38,692 nucleotides of DNA from Schlesneria paludicola DSM 18645 (GTDB lineage: Bacteria > Planctomycetota > Planctomycetia > Planctomycetales > Planctomycetaceae). Both the position numbers and the translations under genes were made by a program. The DNA lies in the NCBI GenBank assembly GCA_945862235.1, contig CAMAYU010000036.1:1-38692 (forward strand), in the 5' to 3' direction. The stretch's first letter is position 1; the number at the start of each line of letters is the position of its first letter. Of the stretch, positions 30,853 through 38,692 are shown piece after piece. The notes beneath the pieces are model-generated. The model did no database searches. It was not told the origin of the DNA and was given only the letters and a program-made list of their open reading frames with translations.

Positions 30853-33800
30853 ATGGGAAAGCAACCGCTGATTGCCCGGTTGTCGCGCTGTGCTGTTCTG
30901 CTGGCGTGGCTCGTCCCGCTGGCATTTGTTCCTGCGCGGCAGGTCCAAGCAGAGGAACCGTACCTTGAGTTCGTGCAGGGTCTGCGAGACCAGCAGTACT
31001 ACGACTATGCGATTCTGTATCTCGATCAAATCGCGACGCGGTCGAATCTTCCGGCTGAGATCAAGCAGGTCATTCCGTATCAGAAGGCGATGATTCTGCT
31101 CGATGGCTCCAAGCGGGCGCGGACTCCCGAGAAGCAGACTGAGCAGCTCGTTCAGGCGCTGGCATTTCTCGAGCAGTTCGTCAAAGACAGCCCAAATCAC
31201 GCGAGTGCAGGTGACGCGAATTCGGATCGCGCTCAGATTTTGCTTGGCATGGGACAGGTCGAGATTCTGCAATCGCGGTCGCCCGCCAATCAGGGAGCCA
31301 AGCGGGAGATTCAGGGCAAGGCGCGCGAGGTGATCGCCAAGGCACGACTCGTCTTTCAGACGGCTTACGATCAGCACGCGGCCGCATTCAAAAAGTTTCC
31401 GAGCTTCATCGACGATCAGAAGGATCGCGCCCTAGCCGCCGACCGGGCCAAGGTCGAAGTGAACATGATCACCGCGATGCTGAACCTCGGGATGTGTACT
31501 TACCACGAGGCCCAATCTCACGACCAAGGCTCAATGGAATTCAAGCAACTGCTCGACAAAGCAGCCGGTGAATTCGAGACGATGCACCAGAAGTACCGCA
31601 GCCAAGTGGGCGGCTTGTTCGCCCGAGCTTGGCAAGGGAAGTGCTATGAAGAGCAGAACGATCTTCAGAAGGCGATGGGCATCTACAACGAGTTGCTCGA
31701 TCACCCCGGCAACGAAGGTCCGCTGTCGCGACTCAAAGCGCAGACGCTGTACTTCAAGCTGATCTGCCTGAACAGCAAGGATCGCAACGACAATCAACTC
31801 GCCGCCGACTTGGCCGAGGAATGGTTGAAGAAAAACCAGGCCGAGGCTCGCACCGAGACGGGGCTGGGCATTCAGTGGGAACAGGCCAAGGCTCACGAGG
31901 CGCTCGGCGACAAAGCAGCTCGCGATGTGAAGGCCGATGCCGAGCGAGGCTGGCGGCAAGCGAGGACGCTCGCCACGCAGATCAACAAGTATCCCGGCGA
32001 GTTCAAGGACTCGTCGCTCGCCATGATCCAGCGGTTGCAGGTCAAGCTGGGTGGGAAAGAGCAGGTGCCGAAGGACTTCGACACCGCGTTCGGCCTGGCT
32101 GGTCAGTCCTTCAAGGCGGCATTGGAAATCGCCAAGGAAATCGAAGGGGGCAAGCGGACCAAGCGACCTGCAGACGAGATCGCCAAGCTGGAGCAGGACC
32201 GTCGCAACGAGATCAGTGACGCCGCCAAGAACTTCGATTTGGCTCTGGGTTTGGCCACGAAGAGAGATGACCCCAAGAGCCTGTCAGAAGCACGCCTGTG
32301 GTACGCCTATGTGAACTATTGGCAGGACAAAAACTACGAGGCGGCGGTACTCGCCCAGTATGTCGCGCGCACGGCGGACAAGGACAACGGGACCGTGGGA
32401 CTGGATGCGGCATTCATGGCGATGGCCGCATTCGTCAAGGCGTACAACGACAACAAGGCACCGCTCAACCAAAAGGCGGAAGACATTCGGATGATCATCC
32501 GCGCCTGCAACATGATCACTGATCGTTGGCCTGCGAGTGAAAAAGCCAACGATGCGCGGATGACTCTGGGACGAATTTACGGTGACGCTAAGAAGCCCGC
32601 CGAAGCGGCTGCGTGGTTTGGCAAGGTGCCCGATTCCGACCCCGGCTATCCCAAGGCACAGACGGCGGCCGGGCAAGCGTACCTGACGGCCTATTACAGC
32701 GCGGGCCGGAGTCCAGGGGCGGACAAGCCGTCCGTCGAACAACTCGGCGAATGGCTCAAACTGGCAGAACAGCACCTGCGCAACGGGATCGACAAGCTGA
32801 CGGCGAGCCTTCCCAAGGAAGGGGCCGCGCCGCCCGAGTTGATCTCCGCCAAGATGTCGCTCGCACAGATCATCATTAGTCAGGGAAAGGATGCCGAGGC
32901 CATCAAGCTGCTGCTGGATGATCCGCATTCGGTCGTCAAAGCGGTGTCGGTTGCCGATGAATCGAAGCGTCCCGATAAGGGGGTCACAAGCCGCAAGTTC
33001 GCCGTGGAAACGTTCAAGCTCCTACTGCGGGCCTACATCGGCAGCAGCAACTTGGACAAGGGCCGCGAGGTCATGCGGACGCTGGAAGGGATCGTCGCGG
33101 CGGATGGGACGGACGCAGGCTCCGATGTCACCGAGCTGTATGTAGGACTCGGCCGGTTGCTCAAGGATGAACTCGAACGGCTCCGCAACAATGGCGAGAC
33201 CGACCGTTACAACAACCTGATGGGATCGTTTGAAACGTTTCTCAATGACATGGCCAGCCGCAAGGAAGGCCAGTCGTTTGGCTCGTTGAGCTGGGTCGGT
33301 GAAACATACTTCGCGCTGGGTGAGACCGTTTCGAGCGATGCCGCAAAGTCGATCGGATTCTACGAAAAGGCCGGAACCGCGTTTGCCGACATTCTGACGC
33401 GAGCCGCTGCCGACGCGAGTTTTGCCAAACCCGAGCAACTGCTCGGAGTGAAGATTCGACAAGTGCGAGTCCACCGACTCAAGAAGGAGTTTGAGCCAGC
33501 GGAACTTTTGATGGGCGAAGTGCTGAAGGTGCGCCCGAACGACATCAAAGCCCAGTTCGCCGCGTGCGAGGTCTATCAGGACTGGGGAGCCAGCGGTCAG
33601 GCGGACTCCGCGAAGAAACTGCTCAACGCCATTCGCGGCAATGACAAGATCGGTGCGTGGGGCTGGGGGCAGATCGGCTTCAAGCTGCAAAAATCGAAGT
33701 CCTTCAAAACGGACCCGACCGTTGCCGAAGCGTTTCTCGACGCGCGGTTCAATGGAACGCAATCGCGACAACGGTACGCCCGCGACCTGCCTCCGAAGGA

Positions 33801-34413
33801 CAGGCAAAAAGAATTGGAACGCTGCCTGACGGAACTGGTCACCACGGCCTCAGTGTCGAGAAACATGCCGGATGAACGGTTCGCCAAATTCAATGCCTTG
33901 TATCGGGATGTGTTACAGGATGCGGGGAAGGCTGCGGAGGACTTGCCTCGCTCACAGTCCGCCGCGCCCGTGGCGGAAGTTGAAAAGCCGGATGCCGCTC
34001 CAGTGAAGCCCGCTGCAACCAAGCAGAAAGAAACGTCGGCCGCTAAATCGGAGGCTCCGAAATCGAGTGACACGATCACGATCGTCGTGTTGATCGGCAT
34101 CCTGCTGTTGGGAGGCGCGGTGGCGGCGTGGATGTTCTTGAAGCCCAAGCCGAAGAAGGCCACTTGGGAATCCGTGTCGGAGCGCGAGCCGTCTCCGATG
34201 ACTTTCGGCGGCGGCACAGGCCCTGAGTCGCGATCTGGTCCGGAGTTTGTCTCGTCACCGATGGATGCTCCGAAACCAAGACCACGACCGGCGAGTGCCG
34301 GCGGCGGACAAGCCGGGTCTGCAACGAAATCGGCATCGAAACCGACCGCGCCCGGCGTGGCGGCGACACCAAAACCGAAACCCAAGCCACCGACTCCGCC
34401 CAGCAACACCTGA
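30853..34413 (+). CDS. Giant secreted TPR protein with C-terminal membrane anchor
   Basis: 1186 residues. A signal peptide (RLSRCAVLLAWLVPLAFV, cleavage likely after VQA near residue 34) leads into about 1000 residues of helical TPR-like repeats, recognisable in pieces such as ARAWQGKCYEEQNDLQKAMG, ARLWYAYVNYWQDKNYEAAV and DARMTLGRIYGDAKKPAEAA. One membrane helix (about 1075-1097, 'TIVVLIGILLLGGAVAAWMF') is followed by an 85-residue Pro/Lys/Ser-rich tail. The predicted topology is a periplasmic TPR scaffold with a cytoplasmic tail. It is the first gene of a same-strand series with a second TPR protein, ExbB and two ExbD proteins. It has no recognised catalytic motif; a role as scaffold or cargo receptor for the ExbB/ExbD motor is inferred from context only. 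Confidence 0.85.
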   Translation: MGKQPLIARLSRCAVLLAWLVPLAFVPARQVQAEEPYLEFVQGLRDQQYYDYAILYLDQIATRSNLPAEIKQVIPYQKAMILLDGSKRARTPEKQTEQLVQALAFLEQFVKDSPNHASAGDANSDRAQILLGMGQVEILQSRSPANQGAKREIQGKAREVIAKARLVFQTAYDQHAAAFKKFPSFIDDQKDRALAADRAKVEVNMITAMLNLGMCTYHEAQSHDQGSMEFKQLLDKAAGEFETMHQKYRSQVGGLFARAWQGKCYEEQNDLQKAMGIYNELLDHPGNEGPLSRLKAQTLYFKLICLNSKDRNDNQLAADLAEEWLKKNQAEARTETGLGIQWEQAKAHEALGDKAARDVKADAERGWRQARTLATQINKYPGEFKDSSLAMIQRLQVKLGGKEQVPKDFDTAFGLAGQSFKAALEIAKEIEGGKRTKRPADEIAKLEQDRRNEISDAAKNFDLALGLATKRDDPKSLSEARLWYAYVNYWQDKNYEAAVLAQYVARTADKDNGTVGLDAAFMAMAAFVKAYNDNKAPLNQKAEDIRMIIRACNMITDRWPASEKANDARMTLGRIYGDAKKPAEAAAWFGKVPDSDPGYPKAQTAAGQAYLTAYYSAGRSPGADKPSVEQLGEWLKLAEQHLRNGIDKLTASLPKEGAAPPELISAKMSLAQIIISQGKDAEAIKLLLDDPHSVVKAVSVADESKRPDKGVTSRKFAVETFKLLLRAYIGSSNLDKGREVMRTLEGIVAADGTDAGSDVTELYVGLGRLLKDELERLRNNGETDRYNNLMGSFETFLNDMASRKEGQSFGSLSWVGETYFALGETVSSDAAKSIGFYEKAGTAFADILTRAAADASFAKPEQLLGVKIRQVRVHRLKKEFEPAELLMGEVLKVRPNDIKAQFAACEVYQDWGASGQADSAKKLLNAIRGNDKIGAWGWGQIGFKLQKSKSFKTDPTVAEAFLDARFNGTQSRQRYARDLPPKDRQKELERCLTELVTTASVSRNMPDERFAKFNALYRDVLQDAGKAAEDLPRSQSAAPVAEVEKPDAAPVKPAATKQKETSAAKSEAPKSSDTITIVVLIGILLLGGAVAAWMFLKPKPKKATWESVSEREPSPMTFGGGTGPESRSGPEFVSSPMDAPKPRPRPASAGGGQAGSATKSASKPTAPGVAATPKPKPKPPTPPSNT

Positions 34414-34542
34414 CGCGGCACAAAGTGAGAGGTTTCCGAGCGGGGCGGCGTCAGCCCCCCGGTTCTTTCGAAGAGGGCTTAGGCCCAAGAACCATTGGGA
34501 TTACGCCGCCCCGCTCAGAGGTCTCATCACAGACCACGCGAG
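34413..34542. mobile_element. MITE-like element, copy 2
   Basis: Same structure as 28185-28316: ACGCGGCACAAAGTGAGA at the left, GAGCGGGGCGGCGT and ACGCCGCCCCGCTC as inner arms, and GACCACGCG at the right. It abuts the preceding gene so closely that its first base is the last base of the TGA stop codon. The right edge runs into GTATAAC, a -10-like sequence before the next gene. Confidence 0.65.
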
Positions 34543-34633
34543 GTATAACAGCATCAAAAACGATTTCAACTCAAACTCGCGATCGCATCGCGTTCCCCTT
34601 CACTGGCCATCTCAAGCCCGGAGCAACTCCACG

Positions 34634-35704
34634 ATGACTCGACGCTTTCTCTCACTGGCTCTCACTGTGGCACTCGCTGCCGCGACCACAACACCTTTGT
34701 TCGCCATCGATACGGTGACTCGTAAGAGTGACAACAAGAAATTCGGTGGCACGATCACCGACATGTCCAAGAACGAGTTTAAAGTGAAGAAGGCTGTCGG
34801 TGACCCGGATGTCCTGCAAGCCAACGATGTGTCAGCGGTGGAATGGGACGGCGCGTCGGGCGATCTCCGTTTGGGAGCGAGCGACGAAAACGGTGGTCGC
34901 TTTGAAATGGCGATCCAGCGATACACCAAGTCTCAAGCCGAATCCAAAGGTTCGAGCGAACATTTGAAGGCCGAGTTCGCCTACGTGATTGCTCGTGCGA
35001 CCGCCAAGTGGGCGTTGTCCGATCCCGAGAAACAGGCGGCGGCGATTCAGTTGCTGCAGGCTGCTCAGAAGTCGAATCCCAACTACTTTCGGTACTACGA
35101 ATCGGTCAATCTGCTGGGGCAAGCGCAACTGGCATCCGGTGACGCTGCCGGTGCGAGGGCAACGTTTGCCCTGCTCGCGAAGGCACCTTGGAGCGACTAC
35201 AAACTCGCCGCGCAGATTGCATCCGGTCGTATCCTGATCGCCGAGAACAAGCTCGATGAAGCGGTCAAAGAGTTTGAAGCGGCTGCGGCTGGCGCGAGTG
35301 ACTCACCCGCCGATCAGCTTCGCAAGTACGAAGCCATGCTCGGCCAAGCCCGCGCCACCGTGATGCAGGCTAAGCACGAAGAGGCTCTCAAAATTCTGGA
35401 AACCGTCACGGACAAAGGCCCTGCGGATGAAGCCTCGCTGCAAGCAGAAGCTTACGTCCTGCAAGGTGACTCGCTTCAGGCACTCGGCCGCGCCAAAGAG
35501 GCAGCGCTGGCTTATCTGCACGTTGACATCCTGTTCTCGCGTGAGACGACTCAACACGCGGCGGCTCTGTTCAACCTTTCCAAGGTCTGGAAGTCTGTGC
35601 AACTTCCCGATCGCAGCACCGAGGCCGAAGCCAAACTGGTGCAGCTTTACCCGAACAGTTCGTGGCGCAAAAAACTCGCGGGCAACGCCGCTCCGGCTGA
35701 ATAG
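34634..35704 (+). CDS. Secreted TPR-repeat protein, second gene of the ExbB/ExbD locus
   Basis: 356 residues. Signal peptide MTRRFLSLALTVALAAATTT ending at LFA; then a small beta domain (about residues 25-75, RKSDNKKFGGTITDMSKNEF), which looks like an Sm- or SH3-like barrel; then TPR repeats (QLLQAAQKSNPNYFRYYESV, GRILIAENKLDEAVKEFEAA, EAYVLQGDSLQALGRAKEAA) to the end. It has no membrane anchor, so it is predicted soluble in the periplasm. The ATG at 34634 opens a clean signal peptide; the longer open frame upstream crosses the MITE-like repeat and is not coding. Likely a partner of the giant TPR protein and of the ExbB/ExbD motor. Confidence 0.86.
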   Translation: MTRRFLSLALTVALAAATTTPLFAIDTVTRKSDNKKFGGTITDMSKNEFKVKKAVGDPDVLQANDVSAVEWDGASGDLRLGASDENGGRFEMAIQRYTKSQAESKGSSEHLKAEFAYVIARATAKWALSDPEKQAAAIQLLQAAQKSNPNYFRYYESVNLLGQAQLASGDAAGARATFALLAKAPWSDYKLAAQIASGRILIAENKLDEAVKEFEAAAAGASDSPADQLRKYEAMLGQARATVMQAKHEEALKILETVTDKGPADEASLQAEAYVLQGDSLQALGRAKEAALAYLHVDILFSRETTQHAAALFNLSKVWKSVQLPDRSTEAEAKLVQLYPNSSWRKKLAGNAAPAE

Positions 35705-35842
35705 CCTCGCGCTGGCAAGAACGAGTTGAAGGTTCTAGTATTCCGCACAACCCTCGCAAACTCGGCAGTCACCCCAATCGACGGTCGCTGCCTGCCTTGC
35801 CGTTGTGCGGGTTTCGTCGGGCCGATTGGCTTGTTGAAACAC

Positions 35843-35907
35843 GTAGGACGGGCACTCTTGCCCGTCAATTCCTGATAAGAAAAGACGGGCAGGAGTGCCC
35901 GTCCTAC
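35843..35907. repeat. Palindromic repeat, family B (copy 1)
   Basis: Arms 35843-35866 and 35884-35907 (24 bases) match as reverse complements with one mismatch; outer end GTAGGACGGGCA, inner end TTGCCCGTC. It lies between the second TPR gene and exbB. A related copy lies at 36936. Confidence 0.85.
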
Positions 35908-35972
35908 AGACATGTTTCGACCGGCAGATCGCCCACCGAAATTGGAGCCACTCACACGAAGGAGAGTTCAAA

Positions 35973-36887
35973 ATGAACGGAATCGGATCGAGCTTTAAGC
36001 GGGGACTTGGCCGCTGCTGGTGTGTGTTGCTGTTTTTCGTAGTCGGTTTGGCTGTCGTTGCCTGTCTCCCCGCGAACGGCTTTGCCCAAACTGATCCCGA
36101 TCCGACCACGATGCCGTTTGGCGATGGAGCGGCTAACAACGGTACTGAAGCGGCCAGCAATGGGCTGCTGCCGGGCGCAAATTTGAAACGTCCCGCCCAA
36201 GAGTCATTGGTGACATGGATGATTCGCGCGTCGGGAATCTTCGGCTTCCTCATCATGCTGATTTCGTTCGTAATGGTGGCGTTGATCATGTCACTCGCCA
36301 CTCAATTGCGACGTGAGAATTACCTGCCTCCGTCATTCGTCGAGCAATTTGAACAACGACTGGAGGCGAAGGACTACCAAGGGGCTTACGAAACAGCCAA
36401 GGAGAGCGATTCGTTTGCCGGTCGGGTGCTGGCTTCGGGCATGGGACGGCTCTCACGCGGATACGAGGAAGCGGAAGCCGGTATGCAAGAAGTGGGTGAC
36501 GACGAGACGCTGACGATGGAGCAGAAAATCGGTTATCTCGCTCTGATTGGCCGGATTGCACCCATGCTCGGCTTGTTGGGAACGGTGCAGGGCATGGTTC
36601 TGGCCTTCCAAGTGATTGCCACATCTCCCAGCTCGCCGAAGCCGTCGGAGTTGGCCGACGGAATTGCAACCGCCCTTTTCACAACTCTTGAGGGACTGGT
36701 GGTCTGTATCCCGGCGATGATCTTCCACACGGTCTTCCGAAATCGACTCTCACGTTTTTTGATGGAATGCGGTTTTGTCGTGACGAACCTCATGAAGAAC
36801 TTTCAGAGCATGGGCAAGCCGACGATTGTCACCAAGCCTGTTGGCGGCGGTGTGTTGGCCTCAGTCCCCGCCGCACCGCAAGCGTGA
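35973..36887 (+). CDS. exbB: MotA/TolQ/ExbB-family proton channel subunit
   Basis: 304 residues. A signal-like hydrophobic segment (about 15-38, ending GFAQ) precedes a periplasmic linker and three membrane helices: about 84-110, about 186-217 (YLALIGRIAPMLGLLGTVQG) and about 227-255 (ELADGIATALFTTLEGLVVC). The last two carry the conserved Gly/Thr/Pro pattern of TolQ/ExbB pore helices. With ExbD it forms a pentamer-dimer motor that couples inward proton flow to mechanical work in the envelope. The extra N-terminal signal-like helix and 40-residue linker are common in the larger ExbB subfamily. ATG 35973 has AAGGAG 8 bases upstream; a longer frame crosses a repeat and is rejected. The symbol is given at family level. 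Confidence 0.93.
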   Translation: MNGIGSSFKRGLGRCWCVLLFFVVGLAVVACLPANGFAQTDPDPTTMPFGDGAANNGTEAASNGLLPGANLKRPAQESLVTWMIRASGIFGFLIMLISFVMVALIMSLATQLRRENYLPPSFVEQFEQRLEAKDYQGAYETAKESDSFAGRVLASGMGRLSRGYEEAEAGMQEVGDDETLTMEQKIGYLALIGRIAPMLGLLGTVQGMVLAFQVIATSPSSPKPSELADGIATALFTTLEGLVVCIPAMIFHTVFRNRLSRFLMECGFVVTNLMKNFQSMGKPTIVTKPVGGGVLASVPAAPQA

Positions 36888-36935
36888 TGTTTCGCGGCGT
36901 GCATCAGGTGCCGCCTGAGCCGTCCGTTGAAAGTA

Positions 36936-37000
36936 GTAGGACGGGGCCCTCTTGCCCGTCGGTTTTCCAGACCGATGACGGGCAACAGTGCCTGTCCCAC
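36936..37000. repeat. Palindromic repeat, family B (copy 2)
   Basis: The outer end GTAGGACGGGG and inner TTGCCCGTCGG match, imperfectly, GACGGGCAACAG and CCTGTCCCAC at the other side. It lies between exbB and the first exbD, 93 bases downstream... measured to its start about 49 bases after the exbB stop. Confidence 0.78.
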
Positions 37001-37026
37001 AGAGTTCATCCAAGATCGGGATCGAG

Positions 37027-37503
37027 ATGAAACTGCGCCCGCTTGAAGCAAATTCGCCCGACACGGACATGACTCCGATCATCGACATCGTCTTCCTGTT
37101 GCTGATGCTGTTCATGATCGTCATCAACTTTGAGAACTCGAAGGCTGAAGACCGGACTCGGTTGCCCAAGGATGGCTTGGCCAAGCCACCGGAAGTGAGG
37201 CCCGAACACGAGTTGGTGCTGAACTTCGGTTACAAGCGAAACCGCGATGGCTCGAAAGCCGAAAGTACTCCGACCGTCTATTTCAATGATCGCGATGTGG
37301 AAGTCGGTCGGCTCGGAATCGAATTGGATCAGGAGCGGCGGGCGATGGAGCAGCAATATGGAAATCGAGTGATTGACGATGTCACCGTGCTGATCCGCGC
37401 GGACGCGGATGTCCCCGCCGGACTCGTGCAGCAGCTCGTGCAAAAGTGCCAGCAAAACGGCTTCACGAAGTTCTTGCTCCGCGCGATGGTGGAACAGAAG
37501 TAG
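37027..37503 (+). CDS. exbD: ExbD/TolR-family protein 1
   Basis: 158 residues: a short cytoplasmic N-terminus, one membrane helix (about 16-36) and a periplasmic domain. The helix starts with the family motif DMTPIIDIVFLLLMLFMIV, in which D20 is the proton-translocating Asp of ExbD/TolR. The C-terminal part (VLIRADADVPAGLVQQLVQK) matches the TolR/ExbD periplasmic fold. ATG 37027 has a GGGA/GAG-rich stretch upstream. It is followed 31 bases later by a second, different ExbD. Confidence 0.93.
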   Translation: MKLRPLEANSPDTDMTPIIDIVFLLLMLFMIVINFENSKAEDRTRLPKDGLAKPPEVRPEHELVLNFGYKRNRDGSKAESTPTVYFNDRDVEVGRLGIELDQERRAMEQQYGNRVIDDVTVLIRADADVPAGLVQQLVQKCQQNGFTKFLLRAMVEQK

Positions 37504-37534
37504 ACCGCCTGGCCATGGACGAAAGGCTCACGGA

Positions 37535-38035
37535 ATGAAGTTTAAACTGCATTTGCCGCCCGACAAATTCAACCTCCCGCTGGCACCGATGCTCGACATC
37601 GCGCTCCTGCTGATGATGTTCTTCGTACTCAACCTGAAGCTCGTCACTCCCCAAGGCAACCTTGATCTCAACCTGCCGATCTCGGCCCCGAACTTGGTTC
37701 AGCGGGCCGATGTCAATCTGACAGACATCAAGGTGGGACTCCATTCCGATCGCAACGGTGTTCTGACGGAACTCACCCTTGGCTCGAAGAACCTCGGCAA
37801 CGATGACGCCGCGTTCGATCGGCTCAACCGAGAAATTCTTCAGATCATCGGCCGTCCCGGAAACCCGCTGACAAAAGATGTCGAGATCGAAATTGATGCG
37901 GACTTTGAAACGCAATACCGCTACGTGGCGAAGGCGATCTCTCAATGCACAGGCCGGATCGATGCTCAGACGAAGCAGATTGCGCGTTACGTCGAGAAGA
38001 TCCGGTTTGCTCCACCCCATAAACCGAAGGCTTGA
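37535..38035 (+). CDS. ExbD/TolR-family protein 2
   Basis: 166 residues with the same plan as the preceding gene: cytoplasmic start, one membrane helix with LAPMLDIALLLMMFFVLNLK and a periplasmic domain rich in beta strands. D21 occupies the proton-channel position. Sequence outside the helix differs strongly from the first ExbD, so this is not a recent duplicate; the two could form a heterodimer in the ExbB pore. ATG 37535 has AAAGG 8-9 bases upstream. The protein ends in a basic tail (KIRFAPPHKPKA). Confidence 0.9.
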   Translation: MKFKLHLPPDKFNLPLAPMLDIALLLMMFFVLNLKLVTPQGNLDLNLPISAPNLVQRADVNLTDIKVGLHSDRNGVLTELTLGSKNLGNDDAAFDRLNREILQIIGRPGNPLTKDVEIEIDADFETQYRYVAKAISQCTGRIDAQTKQIARYVEKIRFAPPHKPKA

Positions 38036-38209: not shown

Positions 38210-38659
38210 ATGGCTCGCAAATCACCCAGTCGATTGGACATGAGAAAACAGGTCGAAGCAGCCGATGCTCTCGATGAGGCCGCGGTCAAGGAAAAGAAGC
38301 CGCGTAAGGCGGCCGCGCCGCGTGTCAGAAAGGTCAAAGAGAAGCCGGAAATTCGCAAGCGGCTCATTTGGATCGTCTATAGCGGCAGCATGAAAGAAGA
38401 GGGGCGATTCCCGTATCACGAGCGTGCGGCCGCCGAAGAAAAGATCGAACAGCTCAAACTCAAGTCGAAGAAGTTGTACTTCATCCAGCCGTTGAAAGAG
38501 ATCATCGGTGAAGACGGCGTGATCGTTCCCGTGGTTTCCGGATCGCTGGATTTGGATGACGAACCAGTCAAGCCAAAGAAGAAGGTCGCCAAGAAGGACG
38601 ATGACGACGACGATGATTCCAGCAGCGAACCCGACGACGACGATGATGACGACGAGTGA
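38210..38659 (+). CDS. Small charged protein with poly-Asp tail, function unknown
   Basis: 149 residues with a strongly polar charge pattern. The N-terminus is Lys/Arg/Ala-rich (about residues 27-50), the middle (about 51-110) is an ordered-looking domain containing RLIWIVYSGSMKEEGRFPYH and 'ERAAAEEKIEQLKLKSKKLY', and the C-terminus is nearly pure Asp/Glu/Ser. No signal peptide or membrane helix. The charge pattern is like that of nucleic-acid-associated or chaperone-like proteins, but no family was recognised. AGGA of the second tandem repeat unit serves as ribosome binding site. It lies 174 bases after the second ExbD gene with its own predicted promoter, so it is probably a separate unit. 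Confidence 0.75.
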   Translation: MARKSPSRLDMRKQVEAADALDEAAVKEKKPRKAAAPRVRKVKEKPEIRKRLIWIVYSGSMKEEGRFPYHERAAAEEKIEQLKLKSKKLYFIQPLKEIIGEDGVIVPVVSGSLDLDDEPVKPKKKVAKKDDDDDDDSSSEPDDDDDDDE

Positions 38660-38692
38660 GTTGTCGGCCTGAGTCGCTCACAAAGTGACTCA

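Follow-up and report, generated by a model that had tools for sequence, protein, structure and literature searches.

The Agl/Glt core of Myxococcus comprises one ExbB protein, two ExbD proteins and exported tetratricopeptide repeat (TPR) proteins of 1191 and 471 amino acids (aa) (PMC3169522), clusters from bacteria of the Planctomycetes–Verrucomicrobia–Chlamydiae (PVC) group combine a vWA transducer with a TPR gene, a tolQ-like gene and a pair of unlike tolR-like genes (PMC12204202, 2025), and in Campylobacter the periplasmic TPR proteins PflA and PflB hold the MotAB stators (PMC12222027). The locus described here consists of five genes encoding TPR1, TPR2, ExbB, ExbD1 and ExbD2, which an open reading frame (ORF) check places in this order at positions 30853–38035, all on the + strand, of a contig of Schlesneria paludicola DSM 18645 (CAMAYU010000036.1, our C36); the complete contig of 38692 bases was analysed and is referred to as the window. 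The arrangement of one ExbB with two ExbD proteins is also said to occur in the ExbB–ExbD1–ExbD2 set of Xanthomonas, although that set reportedly works with TonB, and no such partner was found here. The TonB–ExbB–ExbD system itself shares its ExbB and ExbD families with the locus, but its TonB_C domain and receptor plug are absent from the host.

The likeness to the Agl/Glt system (AglR, AglQ, AglS, GltC, GltD, GltE and GltG) extends from the combination of one ExbB-type with two unlike ExbD-type proteins to the sizes of the TPR proteins, GltD and GltE having 1191 and 471 aa as against 1186 and about 356 aa here, and to the occurrence of the clustered core outside gliding bacteria (PMC3169522). 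There are differences too, since the five-gene unit has no candidate for GltC, and the absence of TonB_C from the host means that GltG, which combines FHA and TonB_C, is absent as well; TPR1 is likened to GltD by size and export. A literature search on the Agl channel aspartate found no paper. The PVC clusters likewise combine TPR, one ExbB and two unlike ExbD proteins, and their vWA family is also present in Planctomycetes (PMC12204202), but here there are two TPR genes rather than one, and Pfam found no vWA protein as the first gene after ExbD2 in the ten scanned of the 20 relatives described below (in one of the ten this gene had no Pfam match). These two features set the locus apart from the published PVC clusters, and the five-gene set is not described in the excerpts of PMC12204202 and PMC12505986. 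PflA and PflB are, like TPR1 and TPR2, a periplasmic pair of TPR proteins of which one has a beta domain at its N-terminus, and they hold 5:2 proton motors in place (PMC12222027); their motors are, however, MotAB at the flagellum, and the resemblance is that of generic solenoids.

The five genes form one conserved unit, and we propose, with a probability of about 0.5, that they encode a motor of composition ExbB5:ExbD1–ExbD2 working on a periplasmic TPR scaffold with no lever of the TonB or TolA kind, for which Agl/Glt gliding and Campylobacter PflA/PflB would, by analogy, be the nearest worked examples. An ExbB pentamer would surround one ExbD1 and one ExbD2 as a 5:2 proton-driven motor in the inner membrane, bound to a periplasmic scaffold that the two exported TPR proteins build. 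Protons passing the Asp residues of ExbD1 and ExbD2 would turn or tilt the ExbD pair, whose periplasmic domains would pass the work directly to TPR1 and TPR2 instead of through a TonB/TolA-type protein, and the scaffold would either hold the motor in place or be the load that is moved. In the part of the family to which the host belongs, TPR1 would be tied to the inner membrane by its C-terminal helix; the TPR1 proteins of the other part lack such a helix, and about half of those loci have putative two-helix membrane proteins beside the operon. In its compact and conserved form the locus would allow one to test how a proton motor can be linked to a TPR scaffold when no TonB/TolA lever is involved.

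Conservation of the unit was followed in two sets of relatives. The first consisted of 20 stretches around relatives of ExbD2, chosen for having ExbD2, and 18 of these have the complete set of five in unchanged order; in one of the remaining two (L038) TPR1 is absent from the locus and present elsewhere in the genome, and the other (L039) is cut by a contig end and has TPR1 on another contig. The wider set came from a scan with TPR2, from which the best 80 loci were listed, partly on the same contigs as the 20. TPR1 is present in 68 of the 70 wider loci with at least 1 kb upstream, and ExbB, ExbD1 and ExbD2 lie behind TPR2 in 55 of the 67 with at least 2.5 kb downstream, the remainder having ExbB alone (one locus) or no motor gene (11 loci). 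One of the wider loci (L088), with the five genes complete and in order, is from the cultured planctomycete Thalassoglobus neptunius KOR42. Since the order persists in relatives with only 25–46 % protein identity (L055–L057), it is conserved far beyond chance, and both sets bear out the original prediction, made from the letters of the window alone, that this is a single locus whose gene order should recur in relatives. Among the 12 genomes with a broken order, nine have a family-level ExbD2 (>150 bits) elsewhere, and TPR1 was found elsewhere in the genome of G009. Eight of the nine motors separated from the TPR genes (L164–L172) keep ExbB, ExbD1 and ExbD2 together, including one with ExbB in two frames (L165), and in the ninth case ExbB remained beside TPR2; no neighbour is common to all nine, although some genes recur in two or three. 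A single-sequence search with ExbD2 (E≤0.001) gave a match in 34 of 40 genomes, at 80 bits or more in 25 of them, including all 15 of the same genus. In two pairs of close relatives each of the five genes has a ratio of non-synonymous to synonymous substitution rates (dN/dS) within 0.02–0.13, some of the dS values being close to 1 or higher.

The three motor proteins match the Pfam families MotA_ExbB (ExbB, 91.3 bits) and ExbD (ExbD1, 64.5 bits; ExbD2, 44.2 bits), and their channel residues are well kept. Among the aligned ExbB residues the Thr of the second transmembrane helix (TM2) is found in 74 of 74, and the two of TM3 in 73 of 74 and 74 of 74; the pore Glu varies widely in the family. 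The channel Asp is present in 66 of the 68 aligned ExbD1 sequences that have a residue there and in 66 of 71 for ExbD2, where it is replaced by Asn in three and by Gly in two (second copies included). This is the channel-residue pattern of a 5:2 proton motor, and the same stoichiometry would apply here.

The two ExbD proteins are 26 % identical to each other and both have the channel Asp in the window, as the original prediction of two unlike ExbD proteins had it. The Asn cases among ExbD2 comprise two sister loci (L058 and L059) and a third (L073) whose closest kin keep Asp, so that the ExbD2 Asp has been lost at least twice with the ExbD1 Asp intact. The Asn-bearing ExbD2 on the contig of L073 (as L043) has a dN/dS of 0.07 in comparison with L042, which indicates purifying selection in this one pair. 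We favour the reading that ExbD1 and ExbD2 are non-equivalent and would form an unlike pair in one motor. A heterodimeric rotor had also been predicted; the unequal loss of Asp supports the non-equivalence of the two proteins indirectly, and that they meet as a heterodimer is something we infer. Both genomes without the ExbD1 Asp (L066 and L069, described below) have lost the ExbD2 Asp as well, which also fits an unlike pair. The natural loss of the ExbD2 Asp alongside an intact ExbD1 provides a way to ask whether the ExbD proteins of a 5:2 motor are equivalent. An extra copy of ExbD2 behind the first is seen in L047 (7938–8396; the contig of L061), L060, L068 and L085.

Pfam TPR models exceed their cut-off in both TPR1 and TPR2, and the structure model of TPR1 shows one continuous and confident alpha-solenoid. 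Confidence is low after about residue 1035, so that the C-terminal helix is placed by hydropathy. With this qualification, the exported protein of 1186 residues, its C-terminal helix and its Pro/Lys tail were all found as predicted, and the model of TPR2 (mean pLDDT, the predicted local distance difference test score, 90), with a five-strand N-terminal domain followed by a TPR array, agrees with the small beta domain foreseen for that exported protein. Conservation of TPR1 per 100 residues is 0.42–0.53 up to residue 1000 and 0.18–0.28 thereafter, and in two pairs the dN/dS of linker, helix and tail is 0.22–0.28, as against 0.04–0.06 for the solenoid. The helix and Pro/Lys tail are present in 39 of 69 TPR1 proteins and missing from 30, a few of which are partial or split (L123 and L135, for example). 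On a tree of 55 rows, built from all five proteins after removal of the helix region and of the alignment columns for the ExbD Asp, the helix state changes twice, on one well-supported branch and in L080, where TPR1 is broken into two frames, the second of which encodes the helix; the change may be a gain or a loss. The group with the helix is labelled mostly Planctomycetaceae, and in the group without it 15 are labelled Pirellulales and 12 Planctomycetaceae, the latter being a loose name.

These data bear on the suggestion, made in the original prediction, that TPR1 is itself the energy transducer, its helix packing on ExbB and ExbD as that of TonB does and its solenoid being pulled. The motor genes stand together with that of TPR1, which in the host's part of the family has a membrane helix, the host has no match to TonB_C, TonB_2 or TolB_N, and each of the 39 helices has at least two Gly residues, which could allow helix packing of some kind. 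TonB and TolA, though, have an N-terminal helix in the opposite orientation, since in 38 of the 39 TPR1 proteins the positive side follows the helix, which places the solenoid outside and the tail inside. None of the 39 helices contains His or a charged residue, whereas the helix of TonB/TolA carries an SHLS/His motif (PMC12204202). Together with the absence of the helix from 30 of the 69 proteins and the weaker selection on it, this leads us to reject the TPR1 helix as a universal transducer, and we consider it quite improbable that TPR1 transduces energy in the way suggested. The protein looks more like a scaffold or a load than a TonB-like lever and, the helix being lineage-specific, the experimental focus shifts from it to the solenoid.

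No TonB_C match was found at E≤1 in the host, whose genome is 97 % complete, nor in any of the 15 genomes of the same genus, each of which matches ExbD2. TonB_C is present in seven of the 40 genomes overall, two of these being without an ExbD2 match, and is missing from 29 of the 34 genomes that match ExbD2; a TonB encoded elsewhere as a steady partner of these ExbB and ExbD proteins is therefore rejected, in agreement with the original prediction, which had seen no TonB. TonB_2 was found neither in the host nor in the 15 genomes of the genus, and in four of the 40 overall, a weak test given that the model matched none of 14 control genomes, and the plug of TonB-dependent receptors is likewise missing from the host and occurs in two of the 15 and 13 of the 40. 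TolB_N is also absent from the host and has one match among the 40 genomes, which is in the same genus and marginal (22.5 bits against a cut-off of 22.4), so that the classic Tol–Pal system seemingly does not fill this job; TolA and Pal were not searched for. The host is thus without a recognisable TonB_C or TolB_N and yet keeps several ExbB–ExbD–ExbD motors.

One alternative, in favour of which the missing TolB_N also counts, is that the TPR pair would be a CpoB-like accessory of a Tol–Pal-like machine, in which ExbB and the ExbD proteins replace TolQ and TolR and which keeps hold of the outer membrane during division. The best NCBIfam match of both TPR proteins is indeed to YbgF/CpoB (TPR2, 30 bits; TPR1, 22 bits; also matched by 13 of 17 TPR1 relatives), and within NCBIfam ExbB scores best with tolQ and both ExbD1 and ExbD2 with tolR. 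All of these scores are nevertheless far below the curated cut-offs, the equivalog cut-offs being missed by ExbB with tolQ (74 bits; cut-off, 221) and by ExbD1 and ExbD2 with tolR (23 and 20 bits; cut-off, 127). TPR domains match each other generically, and no further gene is common to all of the loci. We regard this alternative as rather unlikely. The only Glt match in NCBIfam is to GltJ, over the Pro/Lys-rich end of TPR1. With Foldseek, TPR1 and TPR2 mostly matched generic TPR solenoids that belong to unrelated machines; one chain of the Campylobacter flagellar scaffold is among the many matches, ranked 23rd with TPR1 and seventh with TPR2 at low TM-scores, and VIA-align listed LGN-type and other TPR proteins.

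The remaining alternative is that the true transducer is a membrane protein encoded elsewhere, for example in a family of about 320 aa with a predicted helix near each end. The host encodes at least two members, beside sister motors on its contigs C13 and C30, and the family has no Pfam match over the cut-off. A profile search gave 36 ORFs, of which 28 have at least two clear helices and eight have one (some of these being cut). Of the 21 loci that are without the TPR1 helix and have at least 3 kb upstream, 12 have these genes before TPR1 in divergent orientation, ten of the 12 with a tandem pair; so do four of the 29 loci with the helix, one of the four being beside a second ExbB–ExbD–ExbD set. 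In the first 20 relatives they are seen in L053, L055 and L057, with a pair in the last two. Against their being the transducer, none is found in the window or in the 10–16 kb around the nine separated motors, the linkage is partial, and most of the predicted helices lack His. It seems unlikely, on balance, that the transducer belongs to this family or another such membrane protein, but where TPR1 is without its helix the two-helix protein could serve to anchor the scaffold or to couple it. The 12 loci without the TPR1 helix, in each of which the two-helix genes are on the − strand upstream of TPR1, are L098, L109, L110, L112, L114, L117, L120, L124, L125, L129, L130 and L136.

Returning to the proposed motor on a TPR scaffold, several observations weigh against it. 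Two genomes (G040 and G041) have lost the channel Asp from both ExbD proteins (L066 and L069). Their motors lie away from the TPR genes (L170, 7427–9704, and L171, 5893–8155); a loss of all pore residues was considered and rejected, since the ExbB pore Thr residues are kept and only the two ExbD Asp losses stand. The periplasmic parts of the ExbD proteins are still recognisable, and these are possible natural motor-dead variants. Three genomes with a broken order (G044, G048 and G049) have no family-level ExbD2, only paralogues of up to 59 bits, and two more (G016 and G022) have TPR1 but no ExbD2 match, so that the co-occurrence of the TPR genes and the motor is strong but not strict. The family is also narrow: among 149 genomes drawn from the whole phylum, a strict profile search for ExbD2 matched seven, the host included, and these are all of the host's class. 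The generic nature of the solenoid matches means that the fold does not show the function. Some loci share further neighbours, and the machine may thus exceed five parts, and, given the gaps of 31–268 nt and the hairpins, the genes may not share a single transcript. A bolder version of the proposal, in which a dedicated trans-envelope machine of the Planctomycetia, with a heterodimeric ExbD1–ExbD2 rotor on the TPR scaffold, would take on the envelope coupling for which other bacteria use Tol–Pal or TonB, and in which the proton path could be left to a single ExbD once ExbD2 has lost its Asp, appears doubtful.

The features of the locus are collected in Table 1. The likely ATG starts of TPR2, ExbB, ExbD1 and ExbD2 lie 2–3 codons inside the queried frames, and the intergenic gaps are, in gene order, 220, 268, 139 and 31 nt. 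The placement and common direction of the five genes are as originally predicted, and so are the repeats between them, which prove to be real: related hairpin repeats occupy two of the gaps (35846–35904 and 36945–36997), with three matches in the window where none is expected, and are possibly a dispersed palindromic element. A promoter scan gave no hit, a result that carries little weight in this organism.

Table 1. Features of the TPR1–TPR2–ExbB–ExbD1–ExbD2 locus in the window
Feature	Position	Strand	Basis
TPR1, exported alpha-solenoid protein of 1186 aa	30853–34413	+	ORF, Pfam TPR matches, structure model, homologues
TPR1 solenoid, residues 37–1023, conserved part	30961–33921	+	Confident model helices, conservation profile
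TPR1 C-terminal membrane helix, residues 1077–1095, only in part of the family	34081–34137	+	Hydropathy, tree
TPR1 Pro/Lys-rich tail, predicted disordered and cytoplasmic	34138–34410	+	Hydropathy, model
TPR2, exported protein with TPR repeats, about 356 aa if begun at the ATG	34634–35704	+	Queried from 34625; ORF, Pfam, model
TPR2 small N-terminal beta domain, five strands	34709–34843	+	Structure model
Inverted repeat with 29-nt arms between TPR2 and ExbB	35843–35907		Terminator-like on the − strand
ExbB/TolQ-type proton-channel subunit with signal-like N-terminal stretch	35973–36887	+	Queried from 35964; ORF, Pfam, alignment
ExbD1, ExbD/TolR family	37027–37503	+	Queried from 37018; ORF, Pfam, alignment
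ExbD1 channel Asp codon	37084–37086	+	Alignment
ExbD2, second, unlike ExbD	37535–38035	+	Queried from 37529; ORF, Pfam, alignment
ExbD2 channel Asp codon	37595–37597	+	Alignment

An all-against-all blastp comparison found no gene common to the flanks of all 20 relatives, although this method missed a diverged family. A hidden sixth gene of the operon is rejected on the same ground, no neighbour being common to all loci and two recurring in part. Neighbours recur among close kin, and in L053, L055, L056 and L057 ExbD2 is followed by a common gene, which Pfam identifies as a tyrosine recombinase of about 312 aa (L053, 11909–12850; L056, 12071–13009). Of the 50 wider loci that have 1.5 kb downstream, 13 have it after ExbD2, 12 of them on the opposite strand, and these include loci both with and without the TPR1 helix; they are from distant relatives and not from the examined loci of the window's genus. 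We take the recombinase to be a mere neighbour and set it aside as a part of the machine. In the other relatives scanned the first gene after ExbD2 encodes, for example, GMP synthase, a tRNA synthetase or a lipase; the downstream families recurring in at least four of the 50 loci were listed, and not all are named. Neither the two-helix family nor the recombinase is found by the window operon, but the window ends at 38692, only 657 bases past ExbD2, so that anything further downstream is not visible there. These bases contain an ORF (38210–38659) for a Lys/Asp-rich protein of 149 aa, which has no relative beside the operon in 20 other genomes and is thus placed outside the unit.

The host has at least four other sets of one ExbB with two ExbD proteins. 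The sister set on C13 (L010, 9210–17350) also encodes a two-helix protein, a protein of 589 aa and a TPR1-like protein of 1025 aa that is 25 % identical to TPR1 and is without the C-terminal helix, and the sister set on C30 (L011, 7193–10254) a two-helix protein of 320 aa that belongs to no Pfam family. On C9 (L013, 8885–14462) the set is accompanied by an FHA/PQQ-repeat protein. The set on C91 (L012, 1105–14958) comprises a TPR protein of 2567 aa, ExbB, two ExbD proteins, a membrane protein of 277 aa, a DUF4159 protein and a TPR protein, and may resemble the published PVC force-transducer clusters more than the window operon does.

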